From: an uncultured Desulfomicrobiaceae bacterium
GTDB taxonomy: Bacteria > Desulfobacterota > Desulfovibrionia > Desulfovibrionales > Desulfomicrobiaceae
DNA: 64,000 nucleotides
Direction: 5' to 3'
Assembly (NCBI GenBank): GCA_937989665.1
Contig: CALKRN010000015.1
Span: 1-64,000, forward strand
In this document: in pieces, positions 42,326-55,705 of the stretch
Position numbering within the stretch: the stretch's first letter is position 1
Layout: each line of letters starts with the position of its first letter
The notes under the pieces: model-generated
Databases searched by the model: none
The model's input: the letters and a program-made list of their open reading frames with translations, nothing else
Told to the model about the DNA's origin: nothing
Made by a program: the position numbers and the translations under genes

Positions 42326-45300
42326 ATGCGTCTTACCGATATTTTTATTCGTCGGCCGGTGCTCGCCTTGGTGATCAACATCCTTATTGTTGTCGCCGGC
42401 GTCCAAGCCATTCGCGGGTTGTCCGTGCGTCAGTATCCGCGCAGCGAAAACAGCGTCGTCACGGTGCGCACGGTGTATATTGGCGCCAGTCCTGAGCTTG
42501 TGCGCGGCTTTGTCACTACCGTGCTCGAGCGGGCTATCGCTGCTGCTGACGGTATTGAATACATCGAATCCCAAAGCAGCCAAAACCTCTCCCTCATTCA
42601 GGCCCGACTCAAAATCAACTACGACCCCATCAAGGCCCTCGCCGACATCAGCGCCAAGGTGGATCAAGTCCGCGGCGACCTTCCTCCAGAGGCCGAGGTG
42701 CCCGTCATCCAGGTGGAGTCTGCAGATACCCAGTTCGCCTCGGCCTATCTCAGCTTCACCTCCACGGTACTCGAGCGCAACCAAGTGACCGACTACCTGG
42801 TGCGGGTGATCCAACCACGCCTCTCGGCCCTGCCGGGGGTGCAGCGGGCGGATATCCTTGGAGGGCGCACCTTTGCCATGCGTATCTGGCTCGATCCAAG
42901 ACGCATGGCCGCCTTTGGGGTTGGACCCACGGATGTCCGGATGGCCCTTGCGACGCGCAACGCGTTGGCCGCAGTGGGGCAAACAAAAGGCAATTTGGTC
43001 CAAGTCAATCTGGCCGCCACGTCGGATCTGACAAGTGCCCGGGAATTTGAAGAACTGGTGGTGCGCGATGACGGGGATCGCCTCGTGCGCTTGCGGGATA
43101 TCGCCGAGGTCGTGCTTGGGGCCGAAGACTATGATGCGGAGGTGCGCTTTTCCGGCCAGGAGGCAGTGTTCATGGGTGTGTGGCCATTGCCCACCGCCAA
43201 TTCCCTTGAAGTCATCGACCTCGTGCGTCGGGAGATGGAAGACCTCCAGCGCAATTTGCCCGAAGGCATGACCGCCCGCATTGCCTACGATGCCACCGAC
43301 TATATCCGGACAGCTATCCGGGAGGTCTTGGTGGCCCTGGCCCAGACGCTGACCATTGTGGTGGTGGTCGTCTATCTTTTTCTTGGTCGGGTGCGCTCGG
43401 CGTTGGTGCCGGCAGTCACCATCCCCTTGTCGCTTGTGGGGGCCGCCTTTCTCATGAGCCTTTTAGGGTTTACCATCAACCTTCTCACCTTGCTTGCCTT
43501 GGTGCTCTGTGTCGGATTGGTCGTGGATGACGCCATTGTGGTGGTGGAAAACGTGGAGCGCCATGTGCGCCTGGGCAAGCCGCCGCGGGAGGCAGCGTTG
43601 GTGGCTGGCCGGGAGCTTGCCATGGCCCTCATTGCCACGACCATAGTCCTTGTCGCGGTGTACGCACCCATTGCCTTTCAAGGCGGGCTCACTGGCGCCT
43701 TGTTTCGTGAATTTGCCCTCACCTTGAGCGGGGCGGTGTGTGTCTCCACCGTAACGGCCATCACCTTGTCCCCCGTTATGTCGTCATGGCTTTTGGCTGG
43801 CAGACGGCTCGATGGCCCATTCGTCCAGCGGATTACGAAAGGCTTTACCCGCTTCGAATCGTGGTATGCTCGTCTCCTTGGCCGGGTCGTGGAGGGCCGG
43901 GCCGGGATGTATGTCCTCTGGGTTGTCCTTTCTGCCGCCTGTGTCCCCATGTTCGTCCTCTCTCCCAAAGAGCTGGCGCCAGCAGAGGATCAGGGGGTGA
44001 TTTTTGGAATTCTCGATGCCCCAGCCGATGCCTCCCTCCAGCAGACGAGCCGTTTTGCCCAAGCGGTGAACGATGTCTTTTTTGCCGTCCCAGAAGCCCA
44101 GTTTTCCTTCCAGGTGACGTTTCCTTCCAGCGGGTTCAGTGGGCTCGTCCTGCGGCCCTGGGAAGAGCGCACGCGGTCCGTGTTTACCATCCTCCCGCAG
44201 GTCCAGCGGGGGCTTGACGCCATTCCCGGCATCCAGATGTTTGCGGTCTCCCCGCCCCCCCTGCCAGGCGGGGGTGATTTCCCTGTGGAATTCATCGTTG
44301 CCTCCACGGACGAACAGGACCGGGTCTTGGAATTGGCCCAGGAAATCCAAGGCCGAGCTGCGGCCAGTGGTATCTTCGCTTTTCCCCCGCTTATCGATGT
44401 GAAGATAGATCAGCCCACGGCACGGCTCGTGCTCGATCGGGACAAGATCGCTGCCCTCGGGCTCTCTTTGGCCCAAGTGGCGGCTGATATCAGCGTCATG
44501 ACCGGTGGCAATTACGTCAATCGCTTCAGTATGGAAGGTCGCAGCTACAAGGTCATCCCGCAGGTGCAACGGGTGGATCGGCTGACGGCTGAGGATTTAG
44601 GGCGCATCTATCTGCGGACACCCCAAGGGATGGTCCCCCTGTCGGCAGTGGCGCGGGTGGAGTACACTGCTGGGCCGCGAGCACTCCAGCGTTTCCAGCA
44701 GCTCAATGCCGTAAAGCTCAGTGGCATCCCCATGCGTCCCTTGGACGAGGCCCTGCGCTTTCTCGAGACGCAGGCAGCCGAGGTATTGCCTAAAGGCTAT
44801 AGGGTTGATTATAAAGGCGATTCTCGCCAGCTGCGCACCGAAGGCAATACCTTTCTCCCGGCCATGGCCCTCGCCGTGCTCTGCGCCTTTCTCGTGCTGG
44901 CCGCCCAGTATGAAAGCTTCCGGGACCCGCTCATTATCCTTGCCGGCTCCGCGCCCCTGGGACTTTTTGGCGCCCTGGTGTTTACCTTCCTCAAAATGCC
45001 GGACCCCAGCGTCCCGTTCTGGACGACCCCGTTCACCACCACCCTCAACATCTATTCGCAGGTGGGGCTAGTGACCCTCGTGGGCTTGGTGGCGAAAAAC
45101 GGTATCCTGCTGGTGGAGTTCGCCAACCAGCTCCAGGAGGAGGGCAAGGGCAAACTGGAGGCGGCTATAGAAGCGGCGCGGACGCGGTTGCGGCCTATTG
45201 TCATGACCTCGGCCTCCACAGTGGCGGGATTTGTCCCCTTGGTCCTGGCCACAGGTGCTGGGGCGGCGGCCCGTTTTTCCATCGGCATCGTCCTGGTGGG

Positions 45301-45400
45301 AGGCATGATCATCGGCACGGTCTGCTCGCTGTTCTTTGTGCCGTGCCTCTATCTCCTTTTGGCCCGACCTCGGCAGGCGGCACCCTTGGCCGATGGATAG
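42326..45400 (+). CDS. RND family efflux transporter, HAE-1 type (AcrB-like)
   Basis: 1024 residues, the normal length. The start LTDIFIRRPVLALVINILIV, the family motif GLVVDDAIVVVENVERH in the middle of the first helix set (with the DD proton-relay pair), and the second-half MTSASTVAGFVPLVLATGAG are diagnostic. Two large periplasmic loops hold porter domains. It should pump hydrophobic or amphiphilic compounds using the proton gradient, with the adaptor upstream. The substrate range is not predictable. No regulator is adjacent. Confidence 0.95.
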   Translation: MRLTDIFIRRPVLALVINILIVVAGVQAIRGLSVRQYPRSENSVVTVRTVYIGASPELVRGFVTTVLERAIAAADGIEYIESQSSQNLSLIQARLKINYDPIKALADISAKVDQVRGDLPPEAEVPVIQVESADTQFASAYLSFTSTVLERNQVTDYLVRVIQPRLSALPGVQRADILGGRTFAMRIWLDPRRMAAFGVGPTDVRMALATRNALAAVGQTKGNLVQVNLAATSDLTSAREFEELVVRDDGDRLVRLRDIAEVVLGAEDYDAEVRFSGQEAVFMGVWPLPTANSLEVIDLVRREMEDLQRNLPEGMTARIAYDATDYIRTAIREVLVALAQTLTIVVVVVYLFLGRVRSALVPAVTIPLSLVGAAFLMSLLGFTINLLTLLALVLCVGLVVDDAIVVVENVERHVRLGKPPREAALVAGRELAMALIATTIVLVAVYAPIAFQGGLTGALFREFALTLSGAVCVSTVTAITLSPVMSSWLLAGRRLDGPFVQRITKGFTRFESWYARLLGRVVEGRAGMYVLWVVLSAACVPMFVLSPKELAPAEDQGVIFGILDAPADASLQQTSRFAQAVNDVFFAVPEAQFSFQVTFPSSGFSGLVLRPWEERTRSVFTILPQVQRGLDAIPGIQMFAVSPPPLPGGGDFPVEFIVASTDEQDRVLELAQEIQGRAAASGIFAFPPLIDVKIDQPTARLVLDRDKIAALGLSLAQVAADISVMTGGNYVNRFSMEGRSYKVIPQVQRVDRLTAEDLGRIYLRTPQGMVPLSAVARVEYTAGPRALQRFQQLNAVKLSGIPMRPLDEALRFLETQAAEVLPKGYRVDYKGDSRQLRTEGNTFLPAMALAVLCAFLVLAAQYESFRDPLIILAGSAPLGLFGALVFTFLKMPDPSVPFWTTPFTTTLNIYSQVGLVTLVGLVAKNGILLVEFANQLQEEGKGKLEAAIEAARTRLRPIVMTSASTVAGFVPLVLATGAGAAARFSIGIVLVGGMIIGTVCSLFFVPCLYLLLARPRQAAPLADG

Positions 45401-45402
45401 CC

Positions 45403-46425
45403 ATGCGTCTGTGGTGGTATGTGGCCGACTACCTCAGCCACGCCCGGGCGGCCCGTGCCTACCATGAGGCCGCGAGGGGAGCTGGGCTTTGTCTCGTGGA
45501 AGACCCTGCCCTTGCCGATCTCTGTGTCCTCCATGAAGATCCGGTCTTTTGGCCAACGCTCTTTGCTCGGTTCCCCCTCCTTCGGGAACGGCCTCGGGTG
45601 GGGTATGCGGTATGGGAGGCCCAGACCCTCTCCCCAGCCCATGCCCCCCATCTGCCGCTAGTGGATGCGGTGTGGACGGCCTCCCATTTTTCGGCCCATG
45701 GCCTGCGCCAAGGGCATCCGTGGGTGGAGGTCCTGCCCCATGTGGTGCAGGCACTTTCCCCCTCACCAGAAGCAGTGGCGTGGGTCAAAAAGCGGGTTGG
45801 GGAAGCGCCATATTTTCTTGTGGTCACCGACAGCATCAACCCGCGCAAAAACCTGCCGGCCGTCCTGCGCGCCTTTGCTCGTGTGCGCCATGGTCTGCAG
45901 GGTGCTCGCCTGGTGGTCAAACACTACCGCCAGGCCGTGGACCTGGGAGGGCTACCCCAGGTCGTCAGCATCCCGGAGGAGGTGAGCGATGGCCAAATGG
46001 CAGCGCTCATGACTGGGGCTGTGGCCGTGGTGAGCGCCCACCGTGCCGAGGCCTGGGGGCTGGTGCTCTCCGAGGCCATGGCCCTGGGGGTCCCGGTGGT
46101 CGCCACTGGTTGGTCAGGGAATCTCGAATTTATGGATGCGGGAAACGCCCTTCTTCTTCCCTATGCGTTGGTCCCGGTGGGGCAGTCCATGGCCACCATG
46201 CTGCCGCATTTTACGCCAGAGATGCGCTGGGCCGAAGTGGATGAAGCGGCCCTCGGCCGGGCGTTGGTCCGCTTGGTCCGCTTCGGGGCAGATCCGCTCA
46301 TGCTCCAGCGTGCTCGGGCTGTGGCAGAGCGGTTCTCTCCGGCCCACGTGGGCGCCCGTCTGCGGCAGCTGGCCGAGGCGGTGTTCCATCGGTACGGCAG
46401 GGGAAAGGACCGCGCCATCCCGTAA
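45403..46425 (+). CDS. Glycosyltransferase family 4
   Basis: 340 residues from ATG 45403, 2 bases after the pump stop. The sequence VVTDSINPRKNLPAVLRAFA and the donor-site AEAWGLVLSEAMALGVPVVA (E-x7-E) mark a GT-B enzyme of family 4. Its N-terminal domain (ADYLSHARAARAYHEAARG, YAVWEAQTLSPAHA) resembles mannosyl- or glucosyltransferases of polysaccharide clusters. Its link to the RND pump is positional only. The 197 bases after it, up to ycaO, hold no gene. Confidence 0.85.
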   Translation: MRLWWYVADYLSHARAARAYHEAARGAGLCLVEDPALADLCVLHEDPVFWPTLFARFPLLRERPRVGYAVWEAQTLSPAHAPHLPLVDAVWTASHFSAHGLRQGHPWVEVLPHVVQALSPSPEAVAWVKKRVGEAPYFLVVTDSINPRKNLPAVLRAFARVRHGLQGARLVVKHYRQAVDLGGLPQVVSIPEEVSDGQMAALMTGAVAVVSAHRAEAWGLVLSEAMALGVPVVATGWSGNLEFMDAGNALLLPYALVPVGQSMATMLPHFTPEMRWAEVDEAALGRALVRLVRFGADPLMLQRARAVAERFSPAHVGARLRQLAEAVFHRYGRGKDRAIP

Positions 46426-46622
46426 TATCGTTTCCGTTCAGCGTCCCTGAGCCCGTGCAGGCAGGGCCGACGCTTCTCCCAAGGACTATGGGCATCTGGC
46501 AAGGATGGATGGGCCATGTCGTGGCGCAATAGACGGCCGTCCTTTCGGCCCCACCGAGAAAGATGCCTTCGTATCCCTGCTTGCCACGGCGCGGCACACG
46601 AGAGGGTTGGGTCTCTCAGCAA

Positions 46623-48278
46623 TTAGGGTTCGGGCAGGGTTCTTTGACCGAGCGCTGCGGCTGCTGCGGCAGCGAGGCGGGGGCTGATGCGCGAGAACTC
46701 ATCGAGGTCCGTGGCCGTTTCTAGTCCTGGCACAAGGGCACGCACGACGGGGATGCCGATATCGTCGCGGGTGAGGTCGGCATAGATGGGCTCGTAGCCG
46801 TGGGCAGAGAGGATGGCCTCGAGGAGGCGAACATCGCCGCTCGCCGAGCCGGTGGACAGGTCGGGGAGGTCCTCGATGTGGCGCTCGGGCAAGGGGGACG
46901 GGAACGTGGCCGAGGCTGGGCCGTGGGGAAAGGGGAACGGCACTTCGGTGATGGCGGCGAGGGCCGCGTGGGGTCCACAGAGGTCGGCGGCGGTGGCCTT
47001 GGCAAAGCCACCGCCTGGCAGGGGGACAAGGGCCTTGAAGGCAGGGATGCCGAATTCGGTGGTGATGTCGTGCAGGATTAGGTCAACCCCTTGGGCACGG
47101 TAGGCAGCAAGGAGTCGCTGGAGTAAGGGGGTGCGGCTGCGGGGGCGGAAGGCGCGCTCAGGATTCCAGGGGGAGGTGATTTCGGCATCGCGTTCCAGGA
47201 CTTCAAGTAGTCCGGCGCGCCGGGCTTCATCGAAAGTGCTCCCTGATGCCAGACCCGTAGACCCCAGGGCGCCAAAGAGTTTGGGTTCATCGAGGTTGGC
47301 AAAGAGGAATACGGCCTGTACCGGCACCCAGATGGTGGCACCGAGGGCTGTGGTTGCTGGCATCCAGGCGAGGGGCGCATCTGGGGCTGGGGCCTCGAGG
47401 CAGAGCGTGTTGAGGTCAAGGGCTGGGGCCTCGAGTTCCGTTGCCCGGGCCGTGCGCACCGTGCCGCCGCGGACAAGGCCGGGGATGTGGTCCTCTTCCA
47501 CGGAAGCAAAAGAGCAGACTCGCTCCACTATTTCCATGGCAAGGGAGACGCGGGCGGCCTCGAGGGTGGTCCCCCGGCCGTAGCTCGTCATCGTTCCCTG
47601 GAGGGTGTAGCTGAGGCGACCGTGGACGACCGAGCGCTGAAGGCGCCAGGAGCGGGTGAGTCCAACGGGGGCCAAGGAGGCTTGGTGCCGCAGCTCAGGA
47701 CCCGCGAGGACGCCAATGGTTTCTAAGGCGCTCAGGGCGCGGTGGAGGACTTCAGGGAGTGGAGGACGAGGAGCGGGGTCGGGAAAGGAGATTTGGGCCT
47801 GCAGGGTGGCAGGATCGATGGTGCGGGGGAAGGCGGGTGCGGTGGGCAGAGGTGGCAGATCAAGGGGCAAGGGGCGGCCTTGGAACACCGCGTCTGCGAG
47901 GGCCAGGCTCCAGGCGCGGTGGGTTTCGGCATCGGCCTGACTTCGGTTGCGGAGAAAGACAAGGGGGGAGGCGGCAGCGAGCTCGGCCAGGCGTGGGGTG
48001 GCAAGCAGGGGGCTTAGCGCCGCAAGGCCAGGGTTGAGGAGCACGGTTTCCAGGGCAAGGGCGGCTCGGCTCAGGTCGGGGTGCTGGGCGAGGTCTTGGA
48101 TGGCTTTTGTCCCGGCGGTAGCAAGGATGCGTCGGGCCTCGGCGCGCAAGAAGGCGTCGTTGGGTGTGGCCGCGACGAGATCTATGATTGCAGTAAGTCC
48201 TGGGCATGGCCGAAGCCGAGGGGCGAAGAAGGCTACGCCCAGGTGGCTGTGGTGGTGTTCGAGGCAATACTGGTGCAT
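46623..48278 (-). CDS. ycaO: YcaO-family ATP-dependent backbone-modifying enzyme
   Basis: 551 residues. The catalytic YcaO domain fills about residues 200-540. The ATP-site glutamates are in EAARVSLAMEIVERVCSF and FDEARRAGLLEVLERDA, with GTTL and STGLASG between. Residues 1-195 form a helical, repeat-like N-domain of unknown role. YcaO enzymes activate peptide amides to make azolines, thioamides or amidines. The C-terminus ends LPEP rather than the PxPxP of cyclodehydratases. No partner TfuA, E1 or precursor peptide is near. It is the last gene of the hisS-rsmB translation operon. Confidence 0.85.
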   Translation of the reverse strand: MHQYCLEHHHSHLGVAFFAPRLRPCPGLTAIIDLVAATPNDAFLRAEARRILATAGTKAIQDLAQHPDLSRAALALETVLLNPGLAALSPLLATPRLAELAAASPLVFLRNRSQADAETHRAWSLALADAVFQGRPLPLDLPPLPTAPAFPRTIDPATLQAQISFPDPAPRPPLPEVLHRALSALETIGVLAGPELRHQASLAPVGLTRSWRLQRSVVHGRLSYTLQGTMTSYGRGTTLEAARVSLAMEIVERVCSFASVEEDHIPGLVRGGTVRTARATELEAPALDLNTLCLEAPAPDAPLAWMPATTALGATIWVPVQAVFLFANLDEPKLFGALGSTGLASGSTFDEARRAGLLEVLERDAEITSPWNPERAFRPRSRTPLLQRLLAAYRAQGVDLILHDITTEFGIPAFKALVPLPGGGFAKATAADLCGPHAALAAITEVPFPFPHGPASATFPSPLPERHIEDLPDLSTGSASGDVRLLEAILSAHGYEPIYADLTRDDIGIPVVRALVPGLETATDLDEFSRISPRLAAAAAAALGQRTLPEP

Positions 48279-48295
48279 ACGCAGGCCTCCACGGG

Positions 48296-49537
48296 TTAGG
48301 CTTTGCGCTCCAAGAGTGCAAAAAAGAAAACTTCACCGAGCTCACGCGGGGTTGTGCCTTGGGTGCGGGGGTAAAACTGGGGATGGCGCTGGAGGAAGGC
48401 CTCGATTTGCCCCTCGTTTTCCATGCGTGTGAGGGTACAGGTGAGGTAGGCAATGACGCCTTTGGCCGGGACGAGTGAGGCCGCTGCGTCCAGGAGTGCG
48501 CGCTGGGTTTGGGCCAGGGCCACCATGTCCTGCGGGGAGCGCTTCCAGCGAATATCGGGCCGGTGAGCGAGGACGCCGAGGCCCGTACAGGGGACGTCGA
48601 GGAGGATGGAGCCAGGACGGCGCTGCAGCGGTGGCCGGCGGGCATCGGCGCGAAACATAGGAAGAAAGAGGCCAAGGCGGTGGGCCTGGGCGCGAAGCCC
48701 TGCCATGCGGCCAGCATGGAGGTCGGAGGCCCAGACCGCTTTGCCGAGGTCGGCAAGGAGGGTGGCCTTGCCGCCGTGGCCAGCACAGGCATCCCACACC
48801 GGCTCTGGCCAGGAGGCGGGGTCCAAAGCGGCTACGGCCTCCTGGCTGGCAAGGCTGAGGCGGCAGAGGTCCCCTTGGTTTTCGGCAACCGCAAACCGTT
48901 TCTCCCAACCAGGGAGAGCAAATCCGTAGCGACCGGTGGCGCAAGCTATCGGGGCGAGTTCCTGACGCACGTCTGCAGCTCTCGGGCTCGGCCGAACGCG
49001 TACGCCCACCGGGGCAGGGTCAAGGCTCATGGCGGCCATCTGGCGTGCTCCTTCCAAGCCGACTTCCTCTACCCAGAGATTCCATATCCAAGGCGGTAAA
49101 GAGAACCATTGGGCAGGCGTCCCCCCAGCGGCAGCGAAGGCGGCCTCGTCGTGGAGGCATGGGGCGAGCGCCTCAAGGCGATGGAGGGCCGCGTGGGTAA
49201 GGGCCGCGAGGCGGGGGCCAAGGAGGCGCTTGGCGGCGTCGTGGAGCCAGGCATAGGTGGCATGGGGAGGGACGCGCAAAAAGTGGCGCTCGTAGGCGGC
49301 GAGCTCGAGGAGCCGTTGTGTCAGGTGAGAGAGGGCGTAAAAGCGCGGGAGGATGAGGGAGAGGAGGACATTGATGCGGCCACGGAGCCGGACCGTGCCG
49401 TAGGTGAGCTCCGTGGCGAGACGGGCGTCGCGGGGGCTGAGGTGGAGGCGTTGGGCTTCGAGGGCCGCTTGAAGGTCGTGGCCGCGGTCCAGCGTCGCCC
49501 GCAGGGCAGTAAGGGCAGCGCGGCGGGCAGGGGTCAT
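48296..49537 (-). CDS. rsmB: 16S rRNA m5C methyltransferase RsmB-like
   Basis: 413 residues from ATG 49537. An N-terminal NusB-like RNA-binding domain (RRAALTALRATLDRGHDLQA, ATELTYGTVRLRGRIN) precedes the methyltransferase: motif I VWDACAGHGGKATLLAD, motif IV LLDVPCTGLGVLAHRPDIRW and motif VI YLTCTLTRMENEGQIEAF, with the two cysteines used for C5 methylation. It methylates C967 of 16S rRNA in E. coli. The start overlaps the DUF116 gene as ATGA. The ORF is open further upstream but as a shadow. Confidence 0.93.
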   Translation of the reverse strand: MTPARRAALTALRATLDRGHDLQAALEAQRLHLSPRDARLATELTYGTVRLRGRINVLLSLILPRFYALSHLTQRLLELAAYERHFLRVPPHATYAWLHDAAKRLLGPRLAALTHAALHRLEALAPCLHDEAAFAAAGGTPAQWFSLPPWIWNLWVEEVGLEGARQMAAMSLDPAPVGVRVRPSPRAADVRQELAPIACATGRYGFALPGWEKRFAVAENQGDLCRLSLASQEAVAALDPASWPEPVWDACAGHGGKATLLADLGKAVWASDLHAGRMAGLRAQAHRLGLFLPMFRADARRPPLQRRPGSILLDVPCTGLGVLAHRPDIRWKRSPQDMVALAQTQRALLDAAASLVPAKGVIAYLTCTLTRMENEGQIEAFLQRHPQFYPRTQGTTPRELGEVFFFALLERKA

Positions 49538-50325
49538 ATCCGGAAACGCTCCACCGCCGTGCGGACCTCGTCGATAAGGACGCGGGTGTCGCGGCAGGGG
49601 CCGAGGGGGCGTTGGTTGAGGATGCCCCAGACAGGAATGGGGTAGGTGTCCTGAATGCCGTGGGCGAGGTCCCGTTCGCAGGCTACGGCAATGATGAGCT
49701 GGGGGCGGTTTTCGACGACGATGCGCCGGGCGATGGTGCCGCCTGTGGCTACGGCTAGACGCAGGCCGTAGGTGTCCCGCAAGGCGAGGAGGGCGCCGAT
49801 GTCGCACAGGCCACAGCGGCGGCAATGGTCTACCTCATAGGTGAGGCGCTGGGGGCAGCGACTCTGCTGGAGGCAATGGGGCAGCAGGATGAGGATGCGC
49901 TCTGCCGGCACGCGTCGGCCTTCGGCGGCCACGAGCTCGTTATTGACCCGAATAAACGAGGCCTGGACATCGGTGGCGGAGATACCCAAGGCGCGGCCAA
50001 GGACGGTCATGAGGGGAAGAAAGACGCGCACCGTAATTCCCCGCAGCCGTTTCCCTCCCAGGACAGGCCGGCCAAGGAGGATGTTGAGAACAAGGGCGAG
50101 GCTGGCCCAGGCCACGGTGAGGATAGCCGCCAGGATGAAGAGGCCGAAGATCCATGGGGCCCAGGGATGGATGGTGCCAAGGCCTACCGTGGGAATGGCC
50201 CAAAGACCCACAAGCAGCAGACAGACGAGCAGGGAAGTGCCGGTAATGAGGCCGATGAAGAGGCGTTTGCGCGCCTGGGGACAGGGGGGGGGAGTGGTTA
50301 TTTTGCTGACCATGACCTTGGGCAT
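49534..50325 (-). CDS. DUF116 membrane protein
   Basis: 263 residues from ATG 50325 (ATG 50313 possible). Two hydrophobic helices (~22-46 and ~58-85) anchor a cytoplasmic domain. That domain has a cysteine cluster, PHCLQQSRCPQRL, then CRRCGLCDIGALLAL, whose C-x2-C-x2-C pattern suggests an iron-sulfur or zinc site. VACERDLAHGIQDTYPIPV is the family core. Its biochemical role is unknown. It sits between fmt and rsmB in the same order found in relatives, so a link to translation or start-site formylation is plausible. Confidence 0.85.
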   Translation of the reverse strand: MPKVMVSKITTPPPCPQARKRLFIGLITGTSLLVCLLLVGLWAIPTVGLGTIHPWAPWIFGLFILAAILTVAWASLALVLNILLGRPVLGGKRLRGITVRVFLPLMTVLGRALGISATDVQASFIRVNNELVAAEGRRVPAERILILLPHCLQQSRCPQRLTYEVDHCRRCGLCDIGALLALRDTYGLRLAVATGGTIARRIVVENRPQLIIAVACERDLAHGIQDTYPIPVWGILNQRPLGPCRDTRVLIDEVRTAVERFRI

Positions 50326-50372
50326 CGACTTGAGCGTCGGGGAGGAAAAGGGCTTGGGGTGTCCATTTGGTC

Positions 50373-51335
50373 CTAAGCGCAGGAGCGCAGGTAGCCACAG
50401 GCAAAGGCGCGTCCGCTCATGGGCTTGCCGCCTTCAGGGGTCAGGTGTTCTATGAGATAGGCGCGGTCCTGGCATGCGATGGCGATGGCGTCGCCATGCA
50501 CGCCGAGGAAGCTCCCGGGTAGGGTATGGGAGGGTAACGGGTCGCCAATGGTTCCGGGATGGACGTTGATGCGCAAGGTTCGATCGCCGTCTTGCCAGAA
50601 AAACCAGGTGCCAGGCCAAGGGTGGAAGGCGCGGATGTGGTTGTGCACGGTTAGCGCTGGCCGCTCCCAGCAGAGAAGCCCTTCTTCCTTGCGCAGCTTC
50701 GGGGCGTAGGTGGCGCGGCTATGGTCTTGGGGCAGGCGCAGAAGCCCCCCATGGCGAAGGCGGTGGAGGGCCTCCACCAGGAGTCGGCCGCCGAGTTGGG
50801 CCAGCTCGTCATGGAGGCTGGCGGCGGTATCGTGGATGCCGATGGCCAGGGCGCGCTGGAGGAGGATGTCGCCGGTGTCCATGCCTGCGTCCATCTGCAT
50901 GATGGTGATGCCAGTGACCGGAGCGCCATCTTGAATGGCACGCTGGATGGGGGCAGCGCCCCGGTAGGCAGGCAGCAGCGAAGCATGGACGTTGATGGCG
51001 CCCAAAGGAGGGATATGGAGGACGTCCTGCGGCAAGAGGAGCCCATAGGCGACGACGACAAAGAGATCCGCCGTAAGCTGGCGAAGGGCTTCGTGGACCT
51101 CGGGGGTCTTGAGGGTCTCGGGCTGGAGGACCGTCAGGCCGTGTTCCAGGGCAAGGACCTTGACGGGTGCGGACTGGCAGCGCTGTCCTCGGCCAGCGGG
51201 GCGGTCAGGTTGCGTGACGACGGCCACTACTTCCGCATCTGTGGCATCCAGCAGATGCCGCAGCACCATTGCGGCAAAGTGTGGCGTGCCGAAAAATACT
51301 ACTCGGAGGGGGTGCGCTGCTGCTGTTTGATCCAT
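50373..51335 (-). CDS. fmt: Methionyl-tRNA formyltransferase
   Basis: 320 residues, normal length. It formylates initiator Met-tRNA using 10-formyl-tetrahydrofolate. RVVFFGTPHFAAMVL starts the Rossmann domain. INVHASLLPAYRGAAPIQRA carries the catalytic Asn and His and the SLLP loop, and MQMDAGMDTGDIL the Asp. The C-terminal OB fold begins near residue 205. The first codons overlap the def gene by 37 bases, an unusually long but clear overlap. Confidence 0.95.
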   Translation of the reverse strand: MDQTAAAHPLRVVFFGTPHFAAMVLRHLLDATDAEVVAVVTQPDRPAGRGQRCQSAPVKVLALEHGLTVLQPETLKTPEVHEALRQLTADLFVVVAYGLLLPQDVLHIPPLGAINVHASLLPAYRGAAPIQRAIQDGAPVTGITIMQMDAGMDTGDILLQRALAIGIHDTAASLHDELAQLGGRLLVEALHRLRHGGLLRLPQDHSRATYAPKLRKEEGLLCWERPALTVHNHIRAFHPWPGTWFFWQDGDRTLRINVHPGTIGDPLPSHTLPGSFLGVHGDAIAIACQDRAYLIEHLTPEGGKPMSGRAFACGYLRSCA

Positions 51336-51820
51336 TTGTGCACCCGTTTGTCGTAGAGGGCGCGCTTAAGACGGCTGATACGATCGATGAAGAGGATGCC
51401 ATCGAGGTGGTCAATTTCATGCTGAAGGCAGATGGCCAACAGCCCATCACAGTCTTCTTCGATGGCATTGCCCTCGAGGTCGGTGGCAGAAAGGTGCACC
51501 CGTTCGGCGCGGGGGACAGTGGTGCGGTAGCCGCGTACGGACAGACAGCCTTCCTCGGACTCGACCTGTCCTTCGTGGCCAGAAAGCACCGGGTTGACAA
51601 GCACCCGCGGGGCTTCCCGTTTCTTGGGACCAGAGAGGTCGAGGGTGACGAGGCGGACCGCTTCGCCCACCTGGGGTGCGGCCAGGCCGATGCCGTCGTG
51701 GGCGTACATGAGCTCCAGCATCTCTGCGGCCAGTTGGCGGATGGTGTCGGTCACTTCGGAGATGGGCTGGGCTTTTTGGGCCAGCACCGGGTCAGGGTAG
51801 GTGCGGATCGTCCGGGCCAT
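51299..51820 (-). CDS. def: Peptide deformylase
   Basis: 173 residues. It removes the formyl group from nascent N-termini and is paired with fmt downstream. All three motifs are present: GIGLAAPQVG (~44-53), EEGCLSV (the Cys metal ligand) and QHEIDHLDG (HExxH ligands and catalytic Glu). The metal is Fe2+ in most members. It begins 5 bases after the aspS stop. Confidence 0.96.
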   Translation of the reverse strand: MARTIRTYPDPVLAQKAQPISEVTDTIRQLAAEMLELMYAHDGIGLAAPQVGEAVRLVTLDLSGPKKREAPRVLVNPVLSGHEGQVESEEGCLSVRGYRTTVPRAERVHLSATDLEGNAIEEDCDGLLAICLQHEIDHLDGILFIDRISRLKRALYDKRVHKWIKQQQRTPSE

Positions 51821-51825
51821 GGTCG

Positions 51826-53625
51826 TTACCCTTCAGGGGTTGTCTCGCGTACGCGCAGACTGAGCTCGCGGAGCTGTCGGGGGGCAACGGTGGAGGGGGC
51901 TTCGGTCATAAGACAAACCCCTTTTTGGGTCTTGGGGAAGGCGATGACATCGCGGATGCTCCGGCATCCCGCCAGGAGCATGACGAGCCGGTCCAGGCCA
52001 AAGGCGATACCGCCGTGGGGCGGGGCACCGAAGGAGAGGGCCTCAAGGAGAAAGCCGAACTTGGCCTGGGCTTCTTCAGGGCTAATCCCTAAGGCGGCGA
52101 ACATGCGCCTTTGGGTTTCGGGGTCATGGATGCGGATGGAGCCGCCGCCAACTTCGTTGCCGTTGAGGACCAGGTCATAGGCGCGGGCCGTTGCCGAAGC
52201 GGGGTTATGGACCAAGGCTTGCGGGTCGTTGGGGGCTGTAAAGGGGTGGTGCATGGCTACCCAGCGTTTGTCTTCGTCGTCCCACTCCAGGAGGGGGAAG
52301 TCCGTAACCCAAGTGAGGGCAAGTTGGGATTCGTCGATGAGCTGGAATCGTTCGGCGAGACGCAGGCGCAGGGCACCGAGGGCTGCGTGCACGACGGCTG
52401 GGCTTGCGGCTTGGAAGAAGACGATGTCCCCAGGTTGGAGCTGGAGGGCCTGGGTGAGGCCGTCCTGTTCGGCGGGGGAGAGGAATTTGGCGATGGGCGA
52501 CTGCCAGCCGTCATCGCGGATTTTGATCCAGGCAAGGCCCGTGGCGCCATAGGTCTTCACCATCTCTGTGAGGTCGTCGATCTCTTTGCGGGAGAGTTCG
52601 CCTCCACCAGGGACGGCGATGGCCTTCACCAGGGGCGCTTCGGCGAAGAGTTTGAAAGAGGACCCCTGGACAATGGAGGTGACATCCACGAGCTCGAGGC
52701 CAAAGCGCAGATCGGGTTTATCCGAACCAAAGCGTCCCATGGCCTCGCGGTAGGTGAGGCGAGGAAGCGGCAAGCTGATGTCTTTTCCCAAGGCTTCGCG
52801 GATGAGGGCAGCCATTAAGCCCTCGGCCATTTCCATGACCCCGGCTTCGTCCACAAAGGCCATTTCGATATCGATTTGGGTGAATTCAGGCTGGCGGTCA
52901 GCGCGGAGGTCTTCGTCCCGGAAGCAGCGGGCGATCTGGTAGTAGCGATCGAGCCCGCCGCACATGAGGAGCTGTTTGAAGAGTTGGGGCGACTGGGGCA
53001 GGGCGTAGAACATGCCCGGGGAGAGGCGGCTGGGGACGAGAAAGTCCCGCGCCCCTTCGGGGGTGGATTTGGTAAGGGTTGGGGTCTCGACCTCCACGAA
53101 GGCATGGCTGTTGAGATAGGTGCGGGCCGCTTGGGTGAGGCGGTGGCGCATGAGGAGGTTTTGGGTCATGCTTGACCGGCGCAGGTCGAGATAGCGGTAT
53201 TTGAGGCGGAGGGCCTCGGTGACGTCCACTCGATCCTCGATGGGAAACGGTGGGGTCTTGGCCGTGGCGAGGATCTTGAGCTCCTGGACATACACTTCCA
53301 CTTCGCCGGTGACGAGGTTGGGGTTGTGCATATCGGCGGGCCGCAGGCGGACCTCCCCGCGCACGGCGAGGACATACTCGGCGCGCAGGTGGTGGGCGCG
53401 TTGGTGGGCCTGAGGGGCGAGTTCCGGGGAGAAAACCACTTGGGTAAGGCCTTGGCGGTCACGCAAGTCGATGAAGATAAGCCCCCCGTGGTCGCGGCGG
53501 TACTGCACCCAGCCCATGAGACAAACCGTTTGGCCGGCGTGGGCTGCGGTGAGTTCGCCGCAGCTGTGGGAACGGTGCCAGCCGTCTAGGGAGTCGAGAA
53601 CAACGGGAGAAGAAGGCGTTTCCAT
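51826..53625 (-). CDS. aspS: Aspartyl-tRNA synthetase, probably non-discriminating type
   Basis: 599 residues, bacterial-type class II enzyme. It has an N-terminal anticodon-binding OB fold (~15-115), motif 2 in RYYQIARCFRDEDLRADRQPE-type sequence, a GAD insertion (~290-420) and motif 3 (GGIAFGLDRLVMLL). In the anticodon-binding region the sequence is RRDHGG with H46, where discriminating E. coli-like enzymes have Leu. His here is associated with non-discriminating enzymes that also charge tRNA-Asn for GatCAB. It lies between hisS and def. Confidence 0.95.
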   Translation of the reverse strand: METPSSPVVLDSLDGWHRSHSCGELTAAHAGQTVCLMGWVQYRRDHGGLIFIDLRDRQGLTQVVFSPELAPQAHQRAHHLRAEYVLAVRGEVRLRPADMHNPNLVTGEVEVYVQELKILATAKTPPFPIEDRVDVTEALRLKYRYLDLRRSSMTQNLLMRHRLTQAARTYLNSHAFVEVETPTLTKSTPEGARDFLVPSRLSPGMFYALPQSPQLFKQLLMCGGLDRYYQIARCFRDEDLRADRQPEFTQIDIEMAFVDEAGVMEMAEGLMAALIREALGKDISLPLPRLTYREAMGRFGSDKPDLRFGLELVDVTSIVQGSSFKLFAEAPLVKAIAVPGGGELSRKEIDDLTEMVKTYGATGLAWIKIRDDGWQSPIAKFLSPAEQDGLTQALQLQPGDIVFFQAASPAVVHAALGALRLRLAERFQLIDESQLALTWVTDFPLLEWDDEDKRWVAMHHPFTAPNDPQALVHNPASATARAYDLVLNGNEVGGGSIRIHDPETQRRMFAALGISPEEAQAKFGFLLEALSFGAPPHGGIAFGLDRLVMLLAGCRSIRDVIAFPKTQKGVCLMTEAPSTVAPRQLRELSLRVRETTPEG

Positions 53626-53643
53626 GCGTATTCCTTGGACGCG

Positions 53644-54891
53644 TTAGGCGGTACGGAAGCCCAAAGCTTGGGCGAGGTCGTCCTGGGCGACAGTTGTTTG
53701 GACGCCAGTGGCCATGTCTTTGACCACAATAACGCCGCGGGCCATCTCGTCCTCCCCCAAAAGGAGGCAGGTTTTGACACCGAGCTTGTTGGCTTGGCGC
53801 AGGTGGGCCTTGGGGCTTTTGGCCTCAAAGGCCGTTTCTCCGCGGAAGCCATGGCGGCGCAATGTTTGTCCGACGAGCAGCGCCGTGTCCAGGGCGGCCG
53901 CATCGAGCACGGCCAAATAAAAATCCATGGGCTGCGGTCGGTGGGGAGGAAGGAGGAGGGCGAGGCGTTCCATCCCACAAGCAAAGCCAATGCCGGGCAC
54001 ATCTGGCCCGCCGAGGGCGGCCACCAGACCATCGTAGCGACCTCCGCCGGCGACTGCGCTTTGGGCACCGATGGCGCCGGAGAGGATCTCGAAGGTCGTG
54101 CGCTGGTAGTAATCAAGGCCGCGTACGAGCCGGTGGTTGATGGTCGCCGGGACGGCAGCGGCTTGGAGGATGGCGCGCACCTGGGCAAAGTGGGTAGCGC
54201 ACTCTGGGCAAAGGTGGTCGAGGAGGCGCGGGGCGTTTACCGTGGCCGTGCGGCACGTGGGCACCTTGCAATCAAGCACCCGCAGGGGGTTGGTCGTCGT
54301 GCGGCGCTGGCAGTCTTCGCAGAGGGATGCCAGGTCGATGCCCTCCAGAAACGAGCGCAAAGCCGCGTGGAACGCCGGGCGGCAGGCTGGGCAGCCGAGG
54401 GAATTGATCTCGAGGGTCAGGTCCACGACCTGAAGGCGCTCAAGAAAGGTCCAGAGCATGAGGATGACCTCGGCATCGGCCTGCGGGGTCTTGGCACCAA
54501 GGACTTCGACGTCCAGTTGGTGGAATTGGCGCATGCGCCCTTTTTGGGGCCGCTCGTAACGGAACATGGGGCCGCAGGTGAAGAGTTTGGTGACCCCCTC
54601 GTGCCCGCCAGCCTCGATGAAGGCTCGAAGCACACCGGCTGTGGCCTCAGGTCGTAGGGTAAGGGACCGGCCTTTGCGGTCCGTGAAGGTGTACATCTCT
54701 TTTTGGACGACATCGGTCTCTTCGCCAATGGAGCGGGCAAAGAGCTCGGTGCGTTCCAGGATGGGGATGCGAACTTCTTGGCAGCCGTAAGCGCCGAAGA
54801 CCTCGCGGGCCACGGTTTCCATGTACGTAAATGCCGTGCTCTCTGGCGGGAAGAGGTCGGCAAAGCCTTTGATACGCTGGATTCTTGACAT
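53644..54891 (-). CDS. hisS: Histidyl-tRNA synthetase
   Basis: 415 residues, class II. The N-terminus IKGFADLFPPES (motif 1 region) is followed by motif 2 (LRPEATAGVLRAFIEAGG and FRYERPQKGRMRQFHQLD). The histidine-binding sequences LVRGLDYYQRTTFEI (HisA) and GGRYDGLVAALGG follow, then motif 3 GIGFACGMERLALLL and a C-terminal anticodon domain. It heads the seven-gene minus-strand translation operon. The mobB gene starts divergently 109 bases away. Confidence 0.96.
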   Translation of the reverse strand: MSRIQRIKGFADLFPPESTAFTYMETVAREVFGAYGCQEVRIPILERTELFARSIGEETDVVQKEMYTFTDRKGRSLTLRPEATAGVLRAFIEAGGHEGVTKLFTCGPMFRYERPQKGRMRQFHQLDVEVLGAKTPQADAEVILMLWTFLERLQVVDLTLEINSLGCPACRPAFHAALRSFLEGIDLASLCEDCQRRTTTNPLRVLDCKVPTCRTATVNAPRLLDHLCPECATHFAQVRAILQAAAVPATINHRLVRGLDYYQRTTFEILSGAIGAQSAVAGGGRYDGLVAALGGPDVPGIGFACGMERLALLLPPHRPQPMDFYLAVLDAAALDTALLVGQTLRRHGFRGETAFEAKSPKAHLRQANKLGVKTCLLLGEDEMARGVIVVKDMATGVQTTVAQDDLAQALGFRTA

Positions 54892-55000
54892 AGGAAAGCG
54901 ACACCTTGAAGGAACGGCAGACGTGCCGACGGCACGTTGTCGAGGATCAGAAAGCGGCTTCAGCTAGTGCAGAGTGCTGCTGTTGTCAAAAGGAGGAAAG

Positions 55001-55705
55001 ATGCGCGCTGTTGCCCTGGTAGGGTGGAAGAAATCTGGCAAAACAACGCTGGCGGTGGCCTTGGCAGAGGAGCTGGCACGGCGAGGGGTGCGGGTGGGAG
55101 CCCTCAAGCACTCTCATCATGGATTCGATAGTCCTGGCACCGATACCGCACGCCTAGGAGCGGTGTGCCCGGTCGTGGCTGGCCTCTCCCCGCGCCACAC
55201 GATGGTTGGGTGGAACGAGGCCAAGTCGCCCCAAGACCTTTTCCCGTTGTTGGGGGCAGAGGTTGTGCTCGTGGAGGGGGGAAAAGATTGGGGATGGCTG
55301 CCGCGTATCCTCGTGGTTCCAGGGGGAGGGGAGGACCCGATGTCCCTGGTGGCCGGACGGGAGCTGGGAGTGTTTGGGCCATCGTCCGTGGCGGGGCTGC
55401 CGGCCACGGAGGATGTGGCTGTCGTGGCCGATTGGGTCCTCTCCCGGGGATTTCTCCTGGCTGGGCTGGATTGCGAGGCCTGTGGTCGGGCCTCGTGTGC
55501 AGAGCTGGCCGCGGCCATTGTGGCCGGTGAGGCCCAACCCGAGGATTGCGTCGCACGGCAGCCGCGCTTACGGGTGGCCTGTGGTGGACAGGAATTGGCG
55601 TTAGGTCCTTTTGTGGAGCGACTGGTGCGCTCCACGTTGGTCGGATTGATGTCGGAGCTCAAGGGGTACGTGCCGGGGCAGCCGGTACGCATCGAAATGG
55701 AGTAA
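55001..55705 (+). CDS. mobB: MobB-like molybdopterin-dinucleotide protein with a C-terminal cysteine cluster
   Basis: 234 residues from ATG 55001 (AGGAGGAAAG upstream). The first ~155 residues are MobB: Walker A VGWKKSGKTTLAVALA, GALKHSHHGFDSPGTDTARL and VVLVEGGKDW. MobB helps attach GMP to molybdopterin. Residues ~160-234 add LDCEACGRASCAELAAAIV and EDCVARQPRL, four cysteines that could hold an iron-sulfur cluster. This extension is absent from E. coli MobB. It is followed by a MoaD/E1 pair, so the operon is for pterin cofactor assembly. Confidence 0.85.
   Translation: MRAVALVGWKKSGKTTLAVALAEELARRGVRVGALKHSHHGFDSPGTDTARLGAVCPVVAGLSPRHTMVGWNEAKSPQDLFPLLGAEVVLVEGGKDWGWLPRILVVPGGGEDPMSLVAGRELGVFGPSSVAGLPATEDVAVVADWVLSRGFLLAGLDCEACGRASCAELAAAIVAGEAQPEDCVARQPRLRVACGGQELALGPFVERLVRSTLVGLMSELKGYVPGQPVRIEME

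Follow-up and report, generated by a model that had tools for sequence, protein, structure and literature searches.

The window, a stretch of 64,000 nucleotides from an uncultured Desulfomicrobiaceae bacterium, contains a ycaO gene (Table 1) whose product passes the superfamily cut-off of Pfam PF02624 (159.2 bits, cut-off 25.7). This gene, hereafter A, like its protein and family, stands last in the same-strand order hisS-aspS-def-fmt-DUF116-rsmB-ycaO, in which the six upstream genes were confirmed by Pfam and NCBIfam. A DUF116 gene (49534-50325) is placed between fmt and rsmB. The rsmB stop lies at 48296 and the ycaO ATG 17 nucleotides on, at 48278; within this gap, a GGAGG sequence spaced 7 nucleotides from the ATG is the likely ribosome-binding site, and no terminator-like site was found there in a scan of 45300-55200, over which such sites were as numerous as in shuffled sequences. 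The neighbour beyond ycaO, a glycosyltransferase gene (45343-46425, + strand), is convergent, which agrees with an earlier, sequence-only reading that had put ycaO at the end of a translation operon, within 17 bases of rsmB; open reading frames, Pfam and NCBIfam agree with the gene order given there as well.

Table 1. Features of the ycaO locus (window coordinates), with paralogue B and two groups of A loci
Feature	Position	Strand	Basis or members
ycaO (A family)	46623..48278	-	ORF, ATG to TAA, 551 aa; Pfam PF02624, E 2e-46
N-terminal domain, residues 1-166, beta hairpin and helices	47781..48278	-	AF2 models
YcaO catalytic domain, residues 167-543	46650..47780	-	Z 25.7 to M. jannaschii YcaO 6pe3; Foldseek E 5.9e-19
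First ATP-site motif GRG..E..ER, residues 234-253	47520..47579	-	alignment A2
Second ATP-site motif STGLASG...E..ERD, residues 340-364	47187..47261	-	alignment A2
GGAGG, likely ribosome-binding site	48286..48290	-	read in 17-nt gap after rsmB
rsmB (start inferred)	48296..49537	-	Pfam RsmB-F, E 2e-35; below NCBIfam equivalog cut-offs
DUF116 protein	49534..50325	-	PF01976, E 3e-53
fmt	50373..51335	-	TIGR00460, 281.8 bits, over NCBIfam cut-off
def	51299..51820	-	TIGR00079, over NCBIfam cut-off
aspS	51826..53625	-	TIGR00459, over NCBIfam cut-off
hisS	53644..54891	-	TIGR00442, over NCBIfam cut-off
Glycosyltransferase, next gene beyond ycaO, convergent	45343-46425	+	ORF list, Pfam
Paralogue B, host contig C16	L001:925-2640	-	571 aa, C-terminal TPRs
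tatC-ycaO loci			L040, L041, L042, L044, L046, L047, L053, L054, L060, L065, L068, L075, L079, L090, L098
ycaO-tRNA-Leu(UAA) loci			L043, L050, L057, L063, L069, L070, L071, L073, L074, L078, L081, L089, L092, L093, L099, L113

Protein architecture and relation to known YcaO families

The AF2 model of the full protein has a pLDDT of 95.1, and that of the N-terminal domain modelled alone has one of 92.7. With the Pfam match starting at residue 234 and the modelled YcaO fold at about residue 167, the N-terminal domain of ~195 residues proposed from sequence was about right. This domain has no Pfam match, and PDB searches with it returned nothing at E ≤ 0.001 in Foldseek and nothing at Z 8 in VIA (best Z, 5.4), the weak matches being mostly to HEAT, VHS and similar helical arrays. 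As modelled, it is a helical array without a clear PDB counterpart, which does not in itself imply a new fold. The chain ends with the YcaO domain, without a C-terminal TPR domain in either Pfam or the AF2 model, and has a pI of 5.75 (A-family median, 5.66; range, 4.94-7.36; 77 of the 80 loci, 3 partial ones having been dropped).

Alignment A2 comprises 83 rows, namely, 75 of the 77 long loci (L083 and L107 were left out), 7 further loci and the window protein. Invariant in all 83 are G234, G236, E249, E252 and R253 of the first ATP-site motif, T341, G342, G346, E359, E362 and R363 of the second and, in addition, E445. We take E249, E252, R253, E359, E362, R363 and E445 to be ATP/Mg-site residues, in line with their alignment to the motifs. 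A is a full-length YcaO with an intact ATP/Mg site and is probably active. In the second motif, A has Ala where the published motif, as quoted in PMC7774982, has Gln.

Structural comparison of the catalytic domain gave Z scores of 25.7 for M. jannaschii YcaO (Mj; 340 residues superposed on the A model, rmsd 3.2), 25.2 for LynD, 24.6 for M. kandleri YcaO (Mk) and 21.8 for E. coli YcaO (EcYcaO); since scores differing by less than 1 were regarded as tied, Mj and LynD are inseparable by structure. In a profile search of the PDB, MJ1094 was clearly the best match (E, 2e-31), with LynD at 2e-19 and EcYcaO absent from the matches at E ≤ 0.01. The best NCBIfam model was that of the SagD family (TIGR03604; 108.7 bits, below the cut-off of 219.25), the McrA-YcaO model TIGR03266 scored 103.5 bits (below the cut-off of 365), and the EcYcaO equivalog NF040716 gave no match at E ≤ 0.01. 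In its catalytic domain, A comes nearest to those archaeal YcaOs that form thioamides without TfuA, with a structural tie to the azoline-forming LynD. A family tree had been proposed as a check on the sequence-only reading. In the tree of 41 of 44 rows (three TfuA-linked YcaOs failed the motif cut and were left out), A is a single clade (support, 100/100), and EcYcaO, the model for that reading, groups with B, the second YcaO of the host, at 97/91 and on a very long branch; in AU tests of the deep placement, none of A+Mj/Mk (p 0.292), A+B (p 0.15) and A+EcYcaO (p 0.113) was rejected.

Among known systems, the M. jannaschii and M. kandleri enzymes (6pe3, 6ci7; McrA thioglycine) are the best profile and structural match to the catalytic domain of A and, like A, stand alone without TfuA; unlike these, A has an additional N-terminal domain, forms a separate clade and stays below the TIGR03266 cut-off. 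EcYcaO (P75838) resembles A as a stand-alone enzyme with an accessory helical domain and without TfuA or a precursor, but it carries C-terminal TPRs and has a pI of 4.38, whereas the extra domain of A is N-terminal and not recognized as TPR. LynD, TruD and SagD (TOMM and cyanobactin cyclodehydratases) share the fold and ATP site of A, but no TOMM N-domain, E1 or dehydrogenase of those systems was found in the 80 A loci, and no precursor was evident. YcaO-TfuA pairs (thioamitides, rhizobial plasmids) match A weakly in sequence over the YcaO core and, in contrast to A, include TfuA, which was found in none of the 61 genomes and 80 loci; a tblastn search of plasmids with A recovered distant YcaOs only. 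No paper on clade A was found in the PubMed Central open-licence set.

Distribution, gene neighbourhoods and paralogue B

With a best E value below 1e-40 as our cut for presence, A was found in 32 of 61 relatives and was absent from 29; under the stricter limit of E ≤ 1e-60, 20 of 297 genomes sampled from the whole phylum had it. Of 150 genomes belonging to the order, 142 encode a YcaO of one kind or another. Among the named carriers of A are Desulfovibrio, Pseudodesulfovibrio, Humidesulfovibrio, Desulfomicrobium, Desulfosarcina and Syntrophobacteraceae. A Desulfomicrobiaceae metagenome-assembled genome (L034) is the nearest named relative, and the A1 set is 35-67% identical to the window protein. 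A is a distinct, well-conserved, stand-alone YcaO clade of sulfidogenic Desulfobacterota. Since the 29 genomes without A include the near-complete G011 and G013 (99% complete, of the same genus as the Desulfomicrobium-type genomes), which have B, any role of A must be dispensable. The host genome (2.1 Mb, 86% complete) encodes two YcaO proteins, A in the window and B. It is also among the 57 of 61 genomes with dsrA over cut-off, so the cell probably makes sulfide; as dsrA is about equally common with and without A (31/32 and 26/29 genomes, respectively), the presence or absence of A is not accounted for by sulfide supply. As a separate observation, some Desulfovibrionales genomes (G085, G013 and G128; L145-L147) contain clusters of several further YcaO genes, near the azoline-forming YcaOs in the tree, and these are probably RiPP clusters.

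Neighbourhoods were counted in the best 80 of 143 A loci, which favours the loci most like the query, with genes called by a home-made codon-usage caller. The adjacency of rsmB and ycaO was seen in all three genomes of the host genus (G000, G001 and G002). Conservation of the operon, which the sequence-only reading had suggested as a check, did not extend further: by tblastn, the six operon proteins were found in 1 of the 80 loci, L034, which is of the same genus, and in other single-contig relatives, rsmB and ycaO lie far apart (about 520 kb in G009, for example). We considered the operon as functional evidence and rejected it, the six proteins being found together only in L034 and G002, both of the host genus. 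With the rsmB adjacency confined to one genus, gene position says little about the target of A. Elsewhere, the gene immediately upstream of A is rpsI in 16 of 80 loci, tatC in 15 and a GGDEF gene in 11, the remainder forming smaller groups. In the tatC loci, the two genes mostly overlap or lie within a few base pairs, and tatB precedes tatC in most. In Desulfomicrobium, A is convergent with ybeY-phoH, and in one branch, a tRNA-Leu(UAA) gene follows A on the same strand; ARAGORN detected a tRNA-Leu(UAA) in 17 of the 24 loci scanned. No partner gene is common to all 80 loci, the contexts being lineage-bound, and the rsmB, rpsI and ybeY neighbours, found in one lineage each, argue weakly for a translation target.

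Of the 16 single-contig genomes with both genes, 13 have A and B separated by no more than 160 kb (10-160 kb, by eye), one of the 13 distances assuming a circular chromosome. The separation is some 10 kb in two genomes of the Desulfomicrobium type (G005 and G009, with gaps of 7-8 kb) and 810 kb in G002, of the host genus. The simplest account is that of an old, shared A-B neighbourhood from which the host genus moved A to its place behind rsmB; that place is a genus-level relocation, which speaks of co-expression with translation genes and does not identify a target. B itself matches the EcYcaO equivalog NF040716 weakly (47 bits, cut-off 700). DVU2210, a YcaO-TPR protein of the B type from Desulfovibrionales, shares its superfamily and range of organisms with A, and the two types are often both present, but it has TPRs and belongs to a clade other than A, and its motif, as given in PMC7774982, resembles by eye that of B and not that of A. 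According to the same paper, loss of DVU2210 together with sat leads to molybdate resistance in D. vulgaris; besides this protein, of type B by motif and TPRs, we found no sulfate-reducer YcaO with data. The analogy with E. coli drawn in the sequence-only reading therefore suits B, with its TPRs and its place beside EcYcaO, better than A, which misses the NF040716 model, the low pI and the TPR domain. If any YcaO of these organisms has an EcYcaO-like role on uL16, it is more likely B than A.

Partners, candidate substrates and the likely reaction

TfuA was found in none of the 61 genomes (the control, M. acetivorans, was positive), and tblastn searches of the 80 A loci gave no match to TfuA, SagB, ThiF or TOMM N-domains (control loci were positive for TfuA). 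No precursor-like ORF was evident within 2.5 kb of A, a search that sequence-divergent precursors would escape; the conserved small ORFs near A are, by our reading, tRNA-like, tatB or inside neighbouring genes. The absence of azole or thioamide partners and of a precursor, first remarked for the window, thus extends to the 80 loci, and no RRE/E1 partner was found either. TfuA or a precursor clustered with close homologues had been named earlier as what would speak against a cellular modifier; TfuA was found in none of the 61 genomes and 80 loci, and no precursor was evident within 2.5 kb of A.

A link to methylthiolation of ribosomal protein S12 had also been proposed, and the results do not support it. 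RimO is over cut-off in 28 of 32 genomes with A and in 27 of 29 without, so co-variation of the two was rejected, RimO being present whether or not A is. Moreover, PMC13063428 treats the older link of EcYcaO to uS12 (S12) as unclear and reports that EcYcaO thioamidates uL16 at Met82, using ATP and sulfide and without TfuA. Among 50 Desulfovibrionales genomes (L213-L262), the uL16 residue matching E. coli Met82 is Gln in 43, including the host, and Met in 7, and the Arg preceding position 82 is kept in all 50. Met82 was rejected as a marker for A, since the position is mostly Gln in both sets (22 of 24 genomes with A, 21 of 26 without). The largest difference between the sets is at uL16 residue 79 (L/A), which may reflect lineage. 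Because uL16 M82A is still modified (PMC13063428), Gln in the host neither supports nor excludes modification of uL16.

What remains of the sequence-only reading is its core: a stand-alone YcaO without RiPP partners and with an N-terminal domain is most naturally taken to modify a cell protein, although the operon, E. coli and S12 arguments offered for this are not supported. The target of A is probably some conserved cell protein. At a probability of about 0.5, we favour A as a TfuA-independent enzyme that introduces a thioamide, from sulfide, into the backbone of such a protein. A would bind the folded protein, partly through its N-terminal domain, and would phosphorylate a backbone amide with ATP, whereupon the backbone oxygen would be replaced by sulfur from the sulfide that these cells make. 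That sulfide may be why A needs no TfuA; M. jannaschii and M. kandleri have thioglycine without TfuA (PMC5589413), so TfuA is not needed for a thioamide. From the absence of TfuA, the TfuA-free thioglycine of these archaea and the sulfidogenic hosts, we infer ATP-dependent thioamidation; a thioamide and not an azoline, a protein and not a peptide, and the role of the N-terminal domain all belong to this inferred part. Against thioamide chemistry stand the SagD model, slightly above the McrA-YcaO model (108.7 versus 103.5 bits, both far below cut-off), and the tie of the azoline-forming LynD with Mj (Z, 25.2 versus 25.7).

These same two observations, the SagD-family model as best NCBIfam match (below cut-off) and the LynD tie, together with the distant precursors described in PMC4603692, would suit a RiPP enzyme forming azolines or amidines on a precursor encoded elsewhere. 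We think this improbable: no E1, SagB, TfuA or TOMM N-domain was found in the 80 loci and no conserved precursor-like ORF was evident within 2.5 kb of A, and most RiPP enzymes show neither the steady conservation (35-67% identity) nor the broad occurrence within a single phylum that A does. It is unlikely, too, that the substrate of A is a ribosomal protein, a target suggested in the sequence-only reading, with A placing a thioamide in uL16 or another such protein in the manner of EcYcaO and standing behind rsmB for that reason. Translation-related neighbours are seen, with rsmB in the three host-genus genomes, rpsI in 16 of 80 loci, ybeY-phoH convergent in Desulfomicrobium and tRNA-Leu(UAA) downstream in another lineage, and with M82A still thioamidated by EcYcaO (PMC13063428), Gln is no bar. 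However, each adjacency belongs to one lineage and they may thus represent perhaps 2 same-strand events, tatC is upstream about as often as rpsI, and uL16 residue 82 has no clear link to A; in addition, A has no TPR domain and a pI of 5.75 (median, 5.66; n = 77) versus 4.38 for EcYcaO, and it is B that is EcYcaO-like.

The 15 tatC loci could instead place A on the Tat or respiratory side, as a modifier of TatC or of a Tat-exported redox enzyme, tatBC-ycaO being an old operon of the Desulfobacterales branch. Yet no tat adjacency was seen in Desulfovibrionales A loci (assigned by record titles), and few genomes across the phylum carry clade A (20 of 297, E ≤ 1e-60), and we give this scenario little credence. 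Cooperation of A with B, on a shared substrate or as a heteromer, is very improbable; while no more than 160 kb separates the two genes in 13 of the 16 single-contig genomes with both, and some 10 kb in two of the Desulfomicrobium type, this closeness likely reflects shared old gene order. Several families have B and no A, and B lies 810 kb away in G002 and belongs to a different clade.

According to PMC13063428, protein backbone thioamides are known in two cases only, McrA and uL16, and further YcaO protein substrates are probably still unfound. Clade A may, as we tentatively suggest, be a third protein-thioamidating YcaO lineage besides the McrA and uL16 enzymes, sulfide-fed, TfuA-free and equipped with an N-terminal substrate-docking domain, that marks one conserved house-keeping protein of sulfate reducers not known to carry a thioamide. 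Its target should not be named from the operon or from the label "S12 accessory factor." As a candidate, clade A is clearly delimited: it mostly occurs in one copy, in culturable sulfate reducers and with no partner genes found, and it is absent from close relatives, features that allow a direct comparison of proteomes with and without A or of wild type and mutant.
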